Shown in pieces: positions 991 through 61,105 of a stretch of 64,000 bases of DNA. The notes under the pieces were generated by a model. The model worked only from the letters and a program-made list of their open reading frames with translations, had not been told where the DNA came from and searched no databases. The DNA is from Methanothrix thermoacetophila PT. GTDB lineage: Archaea > Halobacteriota > Methanosarcinia > Methanotrichales > Methanotrichaceae. The stretch covers positions 124,001-188,000 of the forward strand of contig NC_008553.1 in assembly GCF_000014945.1 (NCBI RefSeq). Reading direction: 5' to 3'. Each line of letters begins with the position of its first letter. Within the stretch, counting starts at the first letter, position 1. Position numbers and translations under genes: made by a program.

Positions 991-2169
991 CTAATCCATC
1001 GTGGTCGCTGCGTGTAGTTCACCGCCATCGTCTGATTGTGATATGTAAACATCTCCAGCGGCTCTCGTCTCCTCCGCATCCAGACGATGGTGATCTACGG
1101 GATCTGAATAGTCATCGAACCAGAAAGCAGCGGGATTCCTTTCGAAGACCATGAACATACCTATATTCTCCGGATCTGCAGCCTGCGCGTACTTCATGTA
1201 AACATACCTGTCTGTGAGCCCGACGACCTCGATCTTCCCTGTCGCATGTGACATTACGAACTTGGCTCGCTTGGCCAGACCCGAACACATCGACTTAGCC
1301 TTTTCAACGATCGCGTAGCTCGTCTCAACAGGAACCTGGAAATGGTAGTTTCCGATAGACGGCCTGCATTGGAATACATAGTAAGGCGATACACCAATGA
1401 AAGAGAGCTTCTTGAAGAGCTGTGCCAGCGTTTCTGGATTGTCGTTCACACCTCTCAGAAGCGGTGTCTGGCTCACGGTTATTGCGCCTGCCTCCTGTAG
1501 CTGGCTGACAGCTTTCAGGGTCTCACTCGAGATCTCCTTCGGGTGGTTGAACTGAATCACGAAATATATCCTCCGGTTTTCATGACTGTAGCGCTTCACA
1601 ATCTCGAGAAGCGACGGATCCTCTGTAATTCTGAATGGATTGTAGACCGGAAGCTTTGTGCCGATGCGTATGATCTGCACGTGGTCGATATCCCGCAGCC
1701 TCCTCACGATCTCCTCAAGTCTTTCTGTGGATAGCATGAGGGGATCTCCACCGCTGAGAAGGACGTTTGTTATCTCCCTGTGCTCTCTTATGTAATCCAG
1801 CGCTCTGGGAAGATCGATGGCGGTCTCGTGATGGCTGTCTATGAATATCCTCTTCCGGAAGCAGAACCTGCACAGAGATCCACATGCATTGCTGACGAGC
1901 ATAAGTGCAGTCTGTCTGTACTTGTGCTGAAGCCCAGGCAAAACCGTATATGACCTCTCCCTGGATGGGTCCTTCGTGCCCCAGTTGTACATCTCATTTG
2001 CATCTGGAATCACAATTTTTCGGAGGGGATCTTGGGGATCATTCCAGTCTATCAGCGACAGGTAGTAGCTGCTGGCTCTGAATGCGAAGTTCTCCGTTAC
2101 ACTGGATAGGTCCTTTCTCTCATCCTCCTTCAGCTGCATGACATCCATTATGTCTGTCACATATCTCAT
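991..2169 (-). CDS. KamA-type radical SAM aminomutase
   Basis: A radical SAM enzyme of the lysine 2,3-aminomutase (KamA/AblA) family, 392 residues. The [4Fe-4S] motif CGSLCRFC holds C96, C100 and C103, followed by FRKR; LLSGGDPL is the SAM-binding stretch. The family moves an amino group from alpha to beta carbon with PLP. In methanogens AblA makes beta-lysine for the osmolyte N-epsilon-acetyl-beta-lysine, but its partner ablB is not next to this gene. The usual PLP-lysine motif PGGGGK is replaced by HATGKIEVVG near the C terminus, so the substrate may differ. The start is ATG 2169 because GGAGGTG lies 5 nt before it; the ORF opens a little further upstream. It has its own promoter with dyad repeats. 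Confidence 0.85.
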   Translation of the reverse strand: MRYVTDIMDVMQLKEDERKDLSSVTENFAFRASSYYLSLIDWNDPQDPLRKIVIPDANEMYNWGTKDPSRERSYTVLPGLQHKYRQTALMLVSNACGSLCRFCFRKRIFIDSHHETAIDLPRALDYIREHREITNVLLSGGDPLMLSTERLEEIVRRLRDIDHVQIIRIGTKLPVYNPFRITEDPSLLEIVKRYSHENRRIYFVIQFNHPKEISSETLKAVSQLQEAGAITVSQTPLLRGVNDNPETLAQLFKKLSFIGVSPYYVFQCRPSIGNYHFQVPVETSYAIVEKAKSMCSGLAKRAKFVMSHATGKIEVVGLTDRYVYMKYAQAADPENIGMFMVFERNPAAFWFDDYSDPVDHHRLDAEETRAAGDVYISQSDDGGELHAATTMD

Positions 2170-2185
2170 GTTGCACCTCCTTTTG

Positions 2186-2216
2186 TTTTTGTACAAAATT
2201 TTATTTGTACAAAAAA
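2186..2216 (-). promoter_or_regulatory. Paired GTAC-centred palindromes before kamA-like gene
   Basis: Two palindromes, TTTTTGTACAAAA (2186-2198) and TTTGTACAAAAAA (2204-2216), have centres 16 bp apart. They lie between the TATA box at 2231-2240 and the start codon at 2169, near the expected transcription start (about 2208). The spacing and symmetry suggest an operator for a dimeric repressor. The regulator is unknown; this is inference from sequence symmetry. Confidence 0.55.
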
Positions 2217-2230
2217 CTGAGTGCTTGGAT

Positions 2231-2240
2231 GTTATATAAA
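2231..2240 (-). promoter_or_regulatory. TATA box of kamA-like gene
   Basis: On the minus strand the sequence TTTATATAAC is a good archaeal TATA box. Transcription would begin near 2208, giving a leader of about 40 nt that contains the Shine-Dalgarno GGAGGTG. Confidence 0.55.
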
Positions 2241-2608
2241 GGCAACGTCAATTCATATTATTAAAAATTCTATAAATTTTGAAGAAAATGCATGAAACTC
2301 AGCCTGCTCTCACCTATCTGATAACTACTCCTGAAATCATGCGATGCGCTCCTGGCGAATTAATGCTGATCCGTCCCGGTGATTCTGCAATCTCACAGAG
2401 GGGATGTATTGCTGGTTGGCGTTGGCTGGAGTGTCAGAACATCTTTAAGCCCCCATGTCGTGCTTTTCTGGTAAACAGGGTCACAGGTTAGATCTGGGAG
2501 GAACACAATAATACGCAAGACAGGTATACGAATGAAGACCGTCAGGCAAAGATAATGTGCTCAAAGGAGCATGTTGCTGTACGACCAGTCTTGCGAGGAA
2601 GGATCTCT
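2241..2608. other. Intergenic stretch before epimerase gene
   Basis: Between the divergent kamA-like and epimerase genes. The A+T-rich part (2241-2280) probably holds promoter elements for either side. A 70-codon open frame (2279-2491, plus) shows no recognisable protein features and is not called. AGGAAGG at 2595-2601 is the likely ribosome-binding site of the epimerase gene. Confidence 0.4.
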
Positions 2609-27727: not shown

Positions 27728-27764
27728 GGCCTGAAGCTCGGAGTTTGCGCCCCGCCACCTCTAT
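27728..27764. repeat. IS-end-like motif (copy b)
   Basis: CCTGAAGCTCGGAGTTTGCGC followed by a CCCGCC stretch resembles the motif found at 58619, 59416 and 60266. It begins about 10 bp after the stop of cofE. Confidence 0.4.
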
Positions 27765-31645: not shown

Positions 31646-32070
31646 CCACTCCTTTGTCCTCTCCTGTAGATCTCGTACGCGTGTTTGGAGAGGGCATCTG
31701 CCTCAGCATTCTCCTCTCTTGGCACCCAGACGAACTCGTGTTCGATTCCCTCAAGCATGCTCTTTATAATCGGAACATATCGCTTTGATGTGTGCGATCT
31801 AACCCTCCACTCGCCGCTCATCTGCTTTATGACGAGATTGGAATCGCCCTTGAACACCACCCTCTCCCCAGGGGCGTTCTTCTGTATCCAGCGAATCGCA
31901 GCGAGCAGGGCCTCGTACTCTGCCACGTTGTTCGTCATGCCACTGCCCTCGCCCACAACCCCCCATCCTCTGTGAAGCAGCTCACCGTTGCGGTAGACGA
32001 GATAACCGTATGCTGCCACTCCGCCTGGATTTTTTGGACTGCAGAGGCCGTCGAAGAATACCGTGATCAT
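31642..32070 (-). CDS. RNase H type I
   Basis: 142 residues. Domain start [13 protein letters not shown] has the first catalytic Asp, [10 protein letters not shown] the Glu, and [15 protein letters not shown] the second Asp; [13 protein letters not shown] has the last. It degrades RNA in RNA-DNA hybrids. Start ATG 32070 was chosen for GGAG upstream and because it gives the ATGA overlap with the flavoprotein gene. Confidence 0.9.
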
Positions 32071-32654
32071 TCGCTGCTCCAGCATCCGCCCTTCTTTTTG
32101 AGATCCAGCAGATCGCAGAGCTTGCTCGCGGTTGCCTCGACCGTTGAGATGCCGACGTCGTCGTTCTCAGCGGGCCTGACCGCGATCCCGCCGAAGTGGC
32201 TGTTATCGCCCACCACTATCATCCCGTGGATGTGCATCCATGCATGTATCGCCTCTATCGTCTTCTCCTGGCCGCCGTTCCTCGATCCGCCGACGGCTAT
32301 TGCGCATCCGGCCTTGTCTCTGAGCCTGAAGCCCTGCCGGCGCAGGGGCAGTGTGCGATCGAAGATCGCCTTGAGCTGCGCTGTGACGGATCCGAAGTAC
32401 ACAGGAGATGCGACCACGATCCCATCCGCATTCTGGAGCAGCTCGTAGATCTTAACCATGTCATCATCGATCGGGCATGGCTTGCCCTTGCTACACTCAC
32501 CGCAATCCGTGCAGAACCCGACTCTGAGCCGGGAACACAGCACACTCTCTGTTCTGTATCCCCTCTCCGAGGCCACCCTCAGCGCCCTCTGGAGGAGGTA
32601 CTCGGTGTTCCTTCCGCTCTTCGGGCTTCCCGATATCCCAAGCACCATCGCCAT
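32067..32654 (-). CDS. Iron-sulfur flavoprotein / NADPH-dependent FMN reductase family
   Basis: 195 residues. VLGISGSPKSGRN is the FMN-binding start. CTDCGECSKGKPC gives four Cys spaced like the compact cluster motif of archaeal iron-sulfur flavoproteins (Isf), which accept electrons from ferredoxin and reduce O2 or peroxide. VVASPVYFGSVTAQLKAIFDR is the second FMN loop. ATG 32654 is preferred because GAGGTGAT precedes it. A TnpB relic with its 3' hairpin ends 18 bp upstream, so IS-derived DNA forms part of its promoter region. Confidence 0.85.
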   Translation of the reverse strand: MAMVLGISGSPKSGRNTEYLLQRALRVASERGYRTESVLCSRLRVGFCTDCGECSKGKPCPIDDDMVKIYELLQNADGIVVASPVYFGSVTAQLKAIFDRTLPLRRQGFRLRDKAGCAIAVGGSRNGGQEKTIEAIHAWMHIHGMIVVGDNSHFGGIAVRPAENDDVGISTVEATASKLCDLLDLKKKGGCWSSE

Positions 32655-32671
32655 CGTATCACCTCTGTGAA

Positions 32672-33040
32672 CTACCCTACCCTGAAGGGTAGGGCTTCCC
32701 ACTTCATCGCCAAAACTTGCATCACAGATATATGATGTAAAGGTTTTGACTCTATGGGCACTATGGGCTGTTCCATCCCTGCAATGAGTATGTTCATGGA
32801 AGCATTGTAGTCTCTATCGCATGAGAACCCACAATAAGGGCACTCATGAAATCTGTCCGATAACTCTTTCCTCACAATGCAAGCAAGCAAAACACCTTTG
32901 TGTAGTGTTCCTTGGATCTACCTTGATCAGCTTTCGACCAGCACTTTCAGACTTGTACGAAAGCATGAATATGAACTTAGACCAGGATGCATCATGGATG
33001 TTTCGATGTGTGCCTTTGTTGTAACCCTTCTCCACCTGAG
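32672..33040 (-). pseudogene. tnpB: Truncated, frameshifted TnpB (IS200/IS605 type)
   Basis: Only the last third of a TnpB is left. Residues HDASWSKFIFMLSYKSESAGRK and VDPRNTTQRCFACLHCEE read in one frame, and CPYCGFSCDRDYNASMNIL and the end EALPFRVG in another, with a frameshift near 32870. The zinc ribbon and the last RuvC Asp (in DRDYN) are present; the N-terminal and first catalytic regions are gone. The final codons also form the 3' hairpin CCCTACCCTTCAGGGTAGGG. It cannot make a working protein. Confidence 0.8.
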
Positions 33041-59415: not shown

Positions 59416-59449
59416 CCCGAAGCTTGGAGTTTGCGCCCTCCTCTTTATC
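59416..59449. repeat. IS-end-like motif (copy d)
   Basis: CCCGAAGCTTGGAGTTTGCG followed by CCCTCCTCT, similar to copies b and e. It lies at the 3' end of nep1. Confidence 0.4.
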
Positions 59450-60128
59450 AGGATGGAGCCGACGCCTCCAGAACATGATTCTCGTAGTTGACGAGTATCT
59501 CAGATGCCACGGTCCAGACCGAGAGGCTCTCTTCGTAGATCGATATCGTATCGTCCGCTTCTGAGAGAACATCGCTTATGAACTCCCCCTTCGGAAAGCC
59601 GCCGAGTATGAAGAGAGCGTTATCACACTCCTTCACGTAATCGCTGAGCCTGACCCTTCTGCCCTTCGGTGATAGAAGGATGACCTTTTCGTGCGGGATC
59701 TCACCTATGCATGCGCCGATATCACGATCCCTCTGCATCACAATGAGAGGCTCCCTTTCAGGAACACTGCCCTTCTCAAAGAGGCTCTCCATGAGACCCA
59801 CAAACCGGGGATAGTTCTTGGGTATCCTTGTCGTTGGGTCTATGGTGATCATCTCGTTATTTCTGGTATGGATATAAACCCTGAGCTGACCCACCCTGTT
59901 CAGGACAGATTCCAGCGCCACAAGAAGAAAGACATGGACTATATCCGGCCTCCCGCGGCGATCTCCCATGGGGAGAGCCCGCATCGCTGAGTGATGAAGA
60001 CTTGCATCAAGAATACTCTTCGCCGGTGATTTGTTCCGCTTCCTGGCGTTGAGCCGCACCGCCGGATACCCCACGATCTCTCTGGGCACGAGCTCCAGCT
60101 CAGAATCCGCAAGCAACATGCTAATCAT
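59448..60128 (-). CDS. nep1: rRNA pseudouridine methyltransferase Nep1
   Basis: 226 residues. LDASLHHSAMRALPMGDRRGRPDIVH is the Nep1/Emg1 core (given in part), with VYIHTRNNEMITIDPTTRIPKNY and RFVGLMESLFEKG. It methylates a pseudouridine in the 16S rRNA of the small subunit. The ATG 60128 has GGAGGT 7 nt before it, within a sequence that also forms the 3' end of a TnpB relic. Confidence 0.95.
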   Translation of the reverse strand: MISMLLADSELELVPREIVGYPAVRLNARKRNKSPAKSILDASLHHSAMRALPMGDRRGRPDIVHVFLLVALESVLNRVGQLRVYIHTRNNEMITIDPTTRIPKNYPRFVGLMESLFEKGSVPEREPLIVMQRDRDIGACIGEIPHEKVILLSPKGRRVRLSDYVKECDNALFILGGFPKGEFISDVLSEADDTISIYEESLSVWTVASEILVNYENHVLEASAPS

Positions 60129-60303
60129 AACTGTGACCTCCTCCCCGCCCTGAAGGGCAGGGCTTCCTCACTTCGACTGTGCCGAAGCTAGTCGAAGTCT
60201 TCACTGACGTATCTCCACAGGCTCTAGTCCGAGGGTGAGTATGTTCTTCGTTGCGTACGGGCTTACCCCAAAGATGGGAGCTTGCGCCCTGCTGCCTCTA
60301 CAG
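60129..60303 (-). mobile_element. Internally deleted IS200/IS605-type element
   Basis: From right to left on the minus strand: the presumed left-end motif (60266-60303, AAGATGGGAGCTTGCGCCCT), a short TnpB C-terminal remnant (60201-60262, YATKNILTLGLEPVEIRQ then stop), a spacer, and the 3' hairpin GAAGCCCTGCCCTTCAGGGC with GGGGAGGAGGTCAC (60128-60165). The catalytic body is gone. Confidence 0.6.
60201..60262 (-). pseudogene. tnpB: TnpB C-terminal remnant
   Basis: About 18 codons, YATKNILTLGLEPVEIRQ, then stop. They resemble the stretch after the last RuvC Asp of TnpB (NAxxNILxLGL). Nothing else of the gene survives. Confidence 0.55.
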
Positions 60304-60367: not shown

Positions 60368-61105
60368 CTACAGCACTATTGACATCATGTCATGCGCAAG
60401 CGGCCATCTCTTTACAGCCTCATCGTGCGGCGGATAGAGATGGCTCAGGTGCGTCAGCACCGTCTGCCTGGCGTTCAGTCTGTGCGCCAGGGAGATAGCC
60501 TCATCAGCGTTCATGTGCTTGTTTAGTTTGTAGCCGGGTGGCATTATCGCATCCGCGATGAAGAGATCTGCATCTCTCATGATATCCAGGCTCTCCTCGG
60601 ATAGCGCATCATTCGTATCACTTGTTATGACAACCCTCTTACCACCAGCGGAAACCAGCACCCCCATCGTCTCGACCGGTGGATGGTTCACCTCGAAGAG
60701 CGTGAATTCCATGCCGGCGATCTCGAAGGGCTCCAGGGGCTCCACATCATGCCGCTGGGGTCTCAGGAAATAGAGGTAACTGATTACGTAGTCCAGGGTG
60801 CTGCGGGTTGCGTATACGGGCACATGGTTCTGAACCCTGTGAAAGTCGCCGAAGCCGGCATAGTGATCGTAATGCGCATGCGTCCAGATGACTGCATCCA
60901 CCTTGCTTATGCCCATCTTGATGAGCTGCCATCGAAGATCAGGGCTCGTATCAATAAGCACCCTTCCCTCGTCGTTCTCCAGAAGTATCGAGAACCTGAG
61001 CCGTCGGCTCCTCCCACCATTGAGTGCATCGACGCATGTGGGACATCTGCATCCTATCTTCGGCGTGCCTATCGCATCACCGGTTCCCAGCATCACGACT
61101 CTCAT
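60368..61105 (-). CDS. PhnP-like metallo-beta-lactamase-fold hydrolase
   Basis: 245 residues. The metal motif THAHYDHYAG, TSDTND and the late THLSHLYPPHDE are those of the PhnP-like phosphodiesterase group of the MBL fold; CRCPTCVD near residue 20 adds a metal-binding pair as in PhnP. The substrate is probably a cyclic phosphate, but no phn genes are near. Its start overlaps the AAA gene by 4 bp. Confidence 0.88.
   Translation of the reverse strand: MRVVMLGTGDAIGTPKIGCRCPTCVDALNGGRSRRLRFSILLENDEGRVLIDTSPDLRWQLIKMGISKVDAVIWTHAHYDHYAGFGDFHRVQNHVPVYATRSTLDYVISYLYFLRPQRHDVEPLEPFEIAGMEFTLFEVNHPPVETMGVLVSAGGKRVVITSDTNDALSEESLDIMRDADLFIADAIMPPGYKLNKHMNADEAISLAHRLNARQTVLTHLSHLYPPHDEAVKRWPLAHDMMSIVL

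Follow-up and report, generated by a model that had tools for sequence, protein, structure and literature searches.

A decayed TnpB element right end as the likely source of the nep1 Shine-Dalgarno sequence in an archaeal genome

Insertion sequences can activate neighboring genes through outward-facing promoters, and mobile elements are known to donate promoters. Parts of TnpB systems have also been domesticated, as in the TldR proteins, which descend from nuclease-dead TnpB. TldRs are RNA-guided transcription factors (PMC13418256). Elements of the IS200/IS605 type (TnpB/IS1341-type) carry a right end (RE) directly 3' of tnpB, with a subterminal palindrome, a GAAG foot and a short terminal end, and this RE constitutes the 3' part of the omega RNA, or reRNA (sotRNA in archaea; PMC12558985, PMC8612924). 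The stretch upstream of nep1 described here has the same features, but only the end of the element survives, and it sits in a gene leader as the Shine-Dalgarno sequence (SD). As with promoter-donating insertion sequences, a mobile element would give a host gene an expression signal, whereas here the signal would be translational, built into the terminus of the element, and a replacement for a native one. As with TldR, components of a TnpB system would have been domesticated, but in that case protein and guide act, while at nep1 only the DNA/RNA end is kept, as a leader. The RE is likewise shared with TnpB omega RNAs, reRNAs and sotRNAs; the difference is that nep1 has no sign of guide production or use. 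A limited literature search turned up no description of an SD provided by a TnpB right end and no match for Methanosaeta thermophila together with TnpB, and a review of MITEs (PMC10969869) contains none of six terms relating to translation or to IS605.

The window (the whole stretch of DNA that was analyzed, 64,000 nucleotides) lies in an archaeal genome of 1,879,471 bases on one contig, and its relevant features are collected in Table 1. Immediately before nep1, the minus strand reads GAAGCCC-TGCCC-TTCA-GGGCGGGG-AGGAGGTCAC-AGTT-ATG. The arms CCCTGCCC and GGGCGGGG form eight pairs, including one G-U, around a TTCA loop. A CTTCGAC stretch similar to the second hairpin also lies upstream of the RE of another copy, L015. 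Further upstream, the TnpB remnant has approximately 27 recognizable residues and shows a resemblance to the NAALNILTLG of intact TnpBs; its first part overlaps a 13-base repeat, its protein-level matches beyond itself are weak (E 0.12 or worse), and the stretch upstream of nep1 has no match to PF07282 or PF01385.

Table 1. Coordinates in the window of features at nep1 and at the flavoprotein gene
Feature	Position	Strand	Evidence
nep1 (EMG1/NEP1 rRNA methyltransferase), 226 aa, ATG start	59448..60128	-	Pfam PF03587, E 1.6e-58
AGTT, four bases from element end to nep1 ATG, taken as host flank	60129..60132	-	Flanks after TCAC unrelated in 133 copies; 15-copy alignment
GGAGGT SD within the element right end, 7-base spacer to ATG	60136..60141	-	
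Right end: GAAGCCC foot, hairpin, AGGAGGTCAC; element end at 60133	60133..60166	-	
RE hairpin CCCTGCCC-TTCA-GGGCGGGG	60143..60162	-	Sequence and predicted fold
Second hairpin ACTTCGACT ... AGTCGAAGT, directly 5' of the RE	60170..60198	-	Sequence and predicted fold
TnpB C-terminal frame remnant (...YATKNILTLGLEPVEIRQ stop)	60201..60284	-	DNA matches to other element copies
13-base repeat GGGCGCAARCTCC, one copy	60277..60289	-	
Metallo-beta-lactamase-fold gene upstream of nep1	60368..61105	-	Pfam PF12706, E 5.6e-29
Flavoprotein, FMN reductase family	32067..32654	-	Pfam PF03358, E 7.1e-32
RE of another subtype (GAAGCCCTACCCTTCAGGGTAGGGTAGTTCAC), followed outside by native SD AGAGGTGAT	32667..32698	-	

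Comparison with other copies confirms, at the level of sequence, that this stretch is the right end of a decayed IS200/IS605-type TnpB element. The pattern GAAGCCCN{1,8}CTTCAGGG has nine matches in the source genome and none in the reversed control, while across the family a right-end pattern gave 235 matches, counting those nested in one another, distributed over 34 of 50 genomes, with 10 in the control. Of the 235, the 150 matches listed were taken, 12 nested matches were collapsed and five with unconvincing hairpins were dropped by eye, leaving 133 copies that all lie outside this genus, the source genome and its genus contributing none. The base that follows TCAC is evenly spread in these copies (A 36, T 33, C 33, G 31), which shows that the element ends at TCAC; as GGGAG and TCAC were demanded by the pattern, this flat flank is the sole independent test of the boundary. 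Fifteen aligned copies have the end in common and not the flank, and 47 of the 133 surveyed ends contain GGGAGG. The nep1 stretch thus has the subterminal hairpin, the conserved foot and the fixed end of an IS200/IS605 RE, repeated elsewhere with unrelated flanks. In related genomes such REs are found directly 3' of tnpB, with TnpB frames stopping within approximately 40 bases of the RE hairpin, and all four scanned TnpB frames that end at them have both PF01385 and PF07282; at nep1, there is a C-terminal remnant only. An empty site is also seen, with the element absent at nep1 from all five same-genus genomes compared. Since no left end was recognized at nep1, nor a target motif, a clear left flank or an insertion point, the claim is one of a remnant right end and not of a whole element. 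The Y1 transposase domain (PF01797), a mark of a mobile element, had no match in this genome and was present in five of 14 control genomes. Elsewhere, an open frame in L115 (genome G031; 1543-2451, minus strand) joins part of a Y1 transposase (PF01797) to TnpB domains that come after it (PF01385, PF07282) and is perhaps a fused remnant.

The original prediction held that the 3' hairpin of a TnpB relic is followed by GGAGGT, the SD of nep1, and this is borne out: the SD falls within the repeated end of the element, and the relatives have GGAGAG instead. In five of five same-genus relatives, nep1 is 89-91% identical and begins with MI(S/H)MLLADSELEL, the end of the same metallo-beta-lactamase-fold gene sits upstream, and a native GGAGAG stands at a 5-base spacer from the ATG. 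Elsewhere in the source genome, GGAGGTCAC terminates three of five matched copies of a related end whose hairpin differs from that of the nep1 RE. The 14-base end GGGGAGGAGGTCAC recurs beside an unrelated flank in another genus (L209, one of the 133 copies). As GGAGGTCAC is present in other copies and the relatives have GGAGAG without the element, these comparisons confirm that the element's RE supplies the letters of the nep1 SD and point to replacement of the native one. The prediction had also proposed comparing the nep1 upstream region in relatives that lack the element. That comparison does reveal a conserved, unrelated SD, yet the SD of nep1 is still the element's, so the relatives' SD here indicates that a native signal was replaced and is not evidence against an element origin. 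Little of the native nep1 leader is left, and the left flank gives only a weak alignment. Part of the 4-base AGTT gap could itself be element sequence: among the 133 survey copies, TCAC is followed by AG in 11 and by AGTT in one, and L015, in this genome, also has AG there.

GGAGGT might instead be the ancestral nep1 SD, with the element inserted just upstream of it, and the window offers a precedent at 32654, where a native GGTGATACG follows the element end. At nep1, however, GGAGGTCAC belongs to repeated ends in copies with other flanks and GGAGGT is found in none of the five relatives, which makes an ancestral origin very improbable. The original prediction had assigned the same layout to the flavoprotein gene, and the order of hairpin and then SD does hold there, but the RE is of another subtype (GGGTAGTTCAC) and differs from that of nep1. 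Element-free relatives keep GGTGATAC(G/C)ATG at this gene (five of five); by this comparison the flavoprotein SD is native and lies outside the element, which appears merely to have slid in front of it. The relatives also have a TATA-like CTCATATAG approximately 39 bases before the flavoprotein ATG, and the element lies between the native SD and the position of this box. In this region (32654-32740) the element has a TATA-like CATATATC of its own at about -80, so that the flavoprotein gene may have changed promoter.

That ribosomes recognize the element's SD at nep1 is an inference. GGAGGT is complementary to the presumed 3' tail of the 16S rRNA, and its 7-base spacing is normal; GGATCACCTCCT, a candidate for the 16S end, occurs four times in the genome. 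The duplex with the anti-SD is predicted at -11.3 kcal/mol here and at -6.4 to -6.9 kcal/mol in the relatives, and a value of -11.3 or lower was reached by 0.7% of 3000 random 17-mers from the window. In the predicted fold, at 37 °C as well as at 55 °C, early nep1 codons pair with most of GGAGGT. This pairing is tighter than that in most relatives, and the stronger SD therefore need not give more translation. It is conceivable that nep1 is translated without an SD, either leaderless or coupled to the upstream metallo-beta-lactamase gene, leaving the RE-borne SD a bystander. The covered SD is in keeping with this idea, as is the wide variation in SD strength among 38 window ORFs (at least 200 residues, read from the first ATG, nep1 presumably included), of which six are at -11.3 or below and 23 are weaker than -6.4. 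On the other hand, an SD seems to be used at nep1, since all five relatives retain GGAGAG with an unvarying 5-base spacer, and the 239 bases between the end of the upstream gene and the nep1 ATG argue against coupling. Translation independent of an SD is accordingly unlikely in our assessment, and ribosomes would be expected to use GGAGGT.

A further possibility is that the RE still yields an omega RNA guided by the start of nep1, with TnpB supplied in trans or the leader being processed. A right-end hairpin of this kind is found in archaeal omega RNAs (PMC12558985), and the nep1 stretch therefore probably once encoded one. The reRNAs extend approximately 16 nt into the flank (PMC8612924), and the source genome has two open TnpB frames elsewhere. 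Both of these, however, have REs of another subtype (GTTCAC and GTTCAT), without GGGAGG. The remnant upstream of the nep1 RE is short and in part another repeat, and no intact cognate TnpB accompanies it. No promoter was recognized in this remnant: it has no clear TATA-like box, the best site agreeing with TTTATATA at five of eight positions, compared with five or six in the relatives. Rfam at gathering scores gave no match in the window. Continued guide production at nep1 is thus highly unlikely, and the retained guide-like RNA suggested by the original prediction is unsupported, given a TnpB remnant of approximately 27 residues, a genome without a Y1 transposase match and the negative Rfam result.

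The reading that we consider likely is that the RE of a TnpB element took over as the leader and SD of nep1. An IS200/IS605-type TnpB element would have inserted at or into the native SD with its RE toward the gene and would then have decayed to roughly its last 100-150 bases. The terminus, a hairpin followed by AGGAGGTCAC, would have been left four bases before the ATG and would since have served as a translation leader, the element's GGAGGT pairing with the 3' end of the 16S rRNA in place of the lost GGAGAG. The SD in the terminus would have made such an insertion tolerable, and nep1 would be transcribed from upstream.

The arrangement recurs at other genes. Outside the genus, two of the 133 surveyed REs place an SD in register ahead of a conserved gene: a NUDIX hydrolase, with GGAGGAAGTCAC-CG-ATG (L257) and the RE-borne GGAGG nine bases before the ATG, and a dCTP-deaminase-like candidate, with GGAGGAGTTCAC-G-ATG (L258) and GGAGG eight bases before it. 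The NUDIX gene was matched in 27 of 50 family genomes, of which 24 loci were fetched and 11 upstream regions scanned. The gene in genome G028 and an orthologue with 96% identity in a second species (G031) have the hairpin and the GGGGAGGA leader in common, at -10.1 kcal/mol each; the remaining scanned upstream regions range from -4.0 to -9.0 kcal/mol, with two (L319, L320) that may be anchored at the wrong start. A single change, at the element terminus (TCAC to TTAC), separates the 31-base leaders of G028 and G031, whose upstream 500 bases show no relationship. One change in 31 bases is no fewer than the coding region predicts (4.5%; 95.5% identical), and the comparison thus demonstrates persistence of the NUDIX leader rather than selection on it.

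A class-wide pattern was matched by 122 of 237 genomes. Many genomes also match its reversed control, and chance therefore probably accounts for most of these hits. Thirteen with a hairpin and a TCAC end were opened among the matches listed, and two of them lead into a frame of more than 45 codons, namely NadA and an archaellin-domain gene; both are less certain than the NUDIX and dCTP-deaminase-like cases. For NadA, an 11-base spacer and a further in-frame ATG shortly downstream leave the start uncertain. Other genes near REs were rejected as cases of SD donation: for MoeA and an aldehyde dehydrogenase, the start codon appears to be an ATG further downstream, the ATG of LeuD is too far away, and frames beginning with GTG or TTG were excluded as doubtful. 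Targeting of gene starts, or their enrichment behind REs, was likewise rejected, as long ATG frames (at least 80 codons; counted in the 132 copies whose flank is 400 bases or longer) number two in the first 10-base bin after the RE and 6, 6, 10, 10 and 8 in the next five. SD donation is a rare by-product, reflecting opportunism and not targeting. Since REs of this kind occupy the same position ahead of several further genes of related archaea, they may work as ready-made translation signals.

A broader and more doubtful interpretation is that TnpB REs of the GGAGG subtype are portable leaders that have been fixed repeatedly across Methanosarcinia and outlive the transposon, perhaps being bound or processed by TnpB. 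In these ends, a stable hairpin abuts a strong SD near the last base of the element, and an insertion near a start codon would then exchange the native SD for the element's own rather than inactivate the gene. The host genes would be nep1, the NUDIX and dCTP-deaminase-like genes, and possibly NadA and the archaellin-domain gene. Where a matching TnpB is present, with an omega RNA that has the same hairpin, the leader could be bound or processed, tying the gene to the transposon. The arrangement suggests that one molecule can be both an omega RNA end and an mRNA leader. Donation of a ribosome-binding site by a TnpB terminus, with the native SD visible in relatives, would be a clear-cut, testable example of one signal replacing another, and SD-bearing ends could help to explain how insertion sequences survive close to start codons.

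Two minor observations concern the surroundings of nep1. The gene was found by search in nine of 50 family genomes (all six of the genus and three others), which means either that a ribosome-maturation gene has been lost patchily or that its other copies are too divergent for that search. The 13-base repeat GGGCGCAARCTCC has three minus-strand copies in the window with at most one mismatch (59426-59438, 60277-60289 and 27740-27752; 0.03 expected), the first two flanking nep1, one on each side. The genome has five further sites at which GGGCGCAARCTCC leads to GTCAC within 30 bases, and the repeat may therefore represent another type of TnpB right end.
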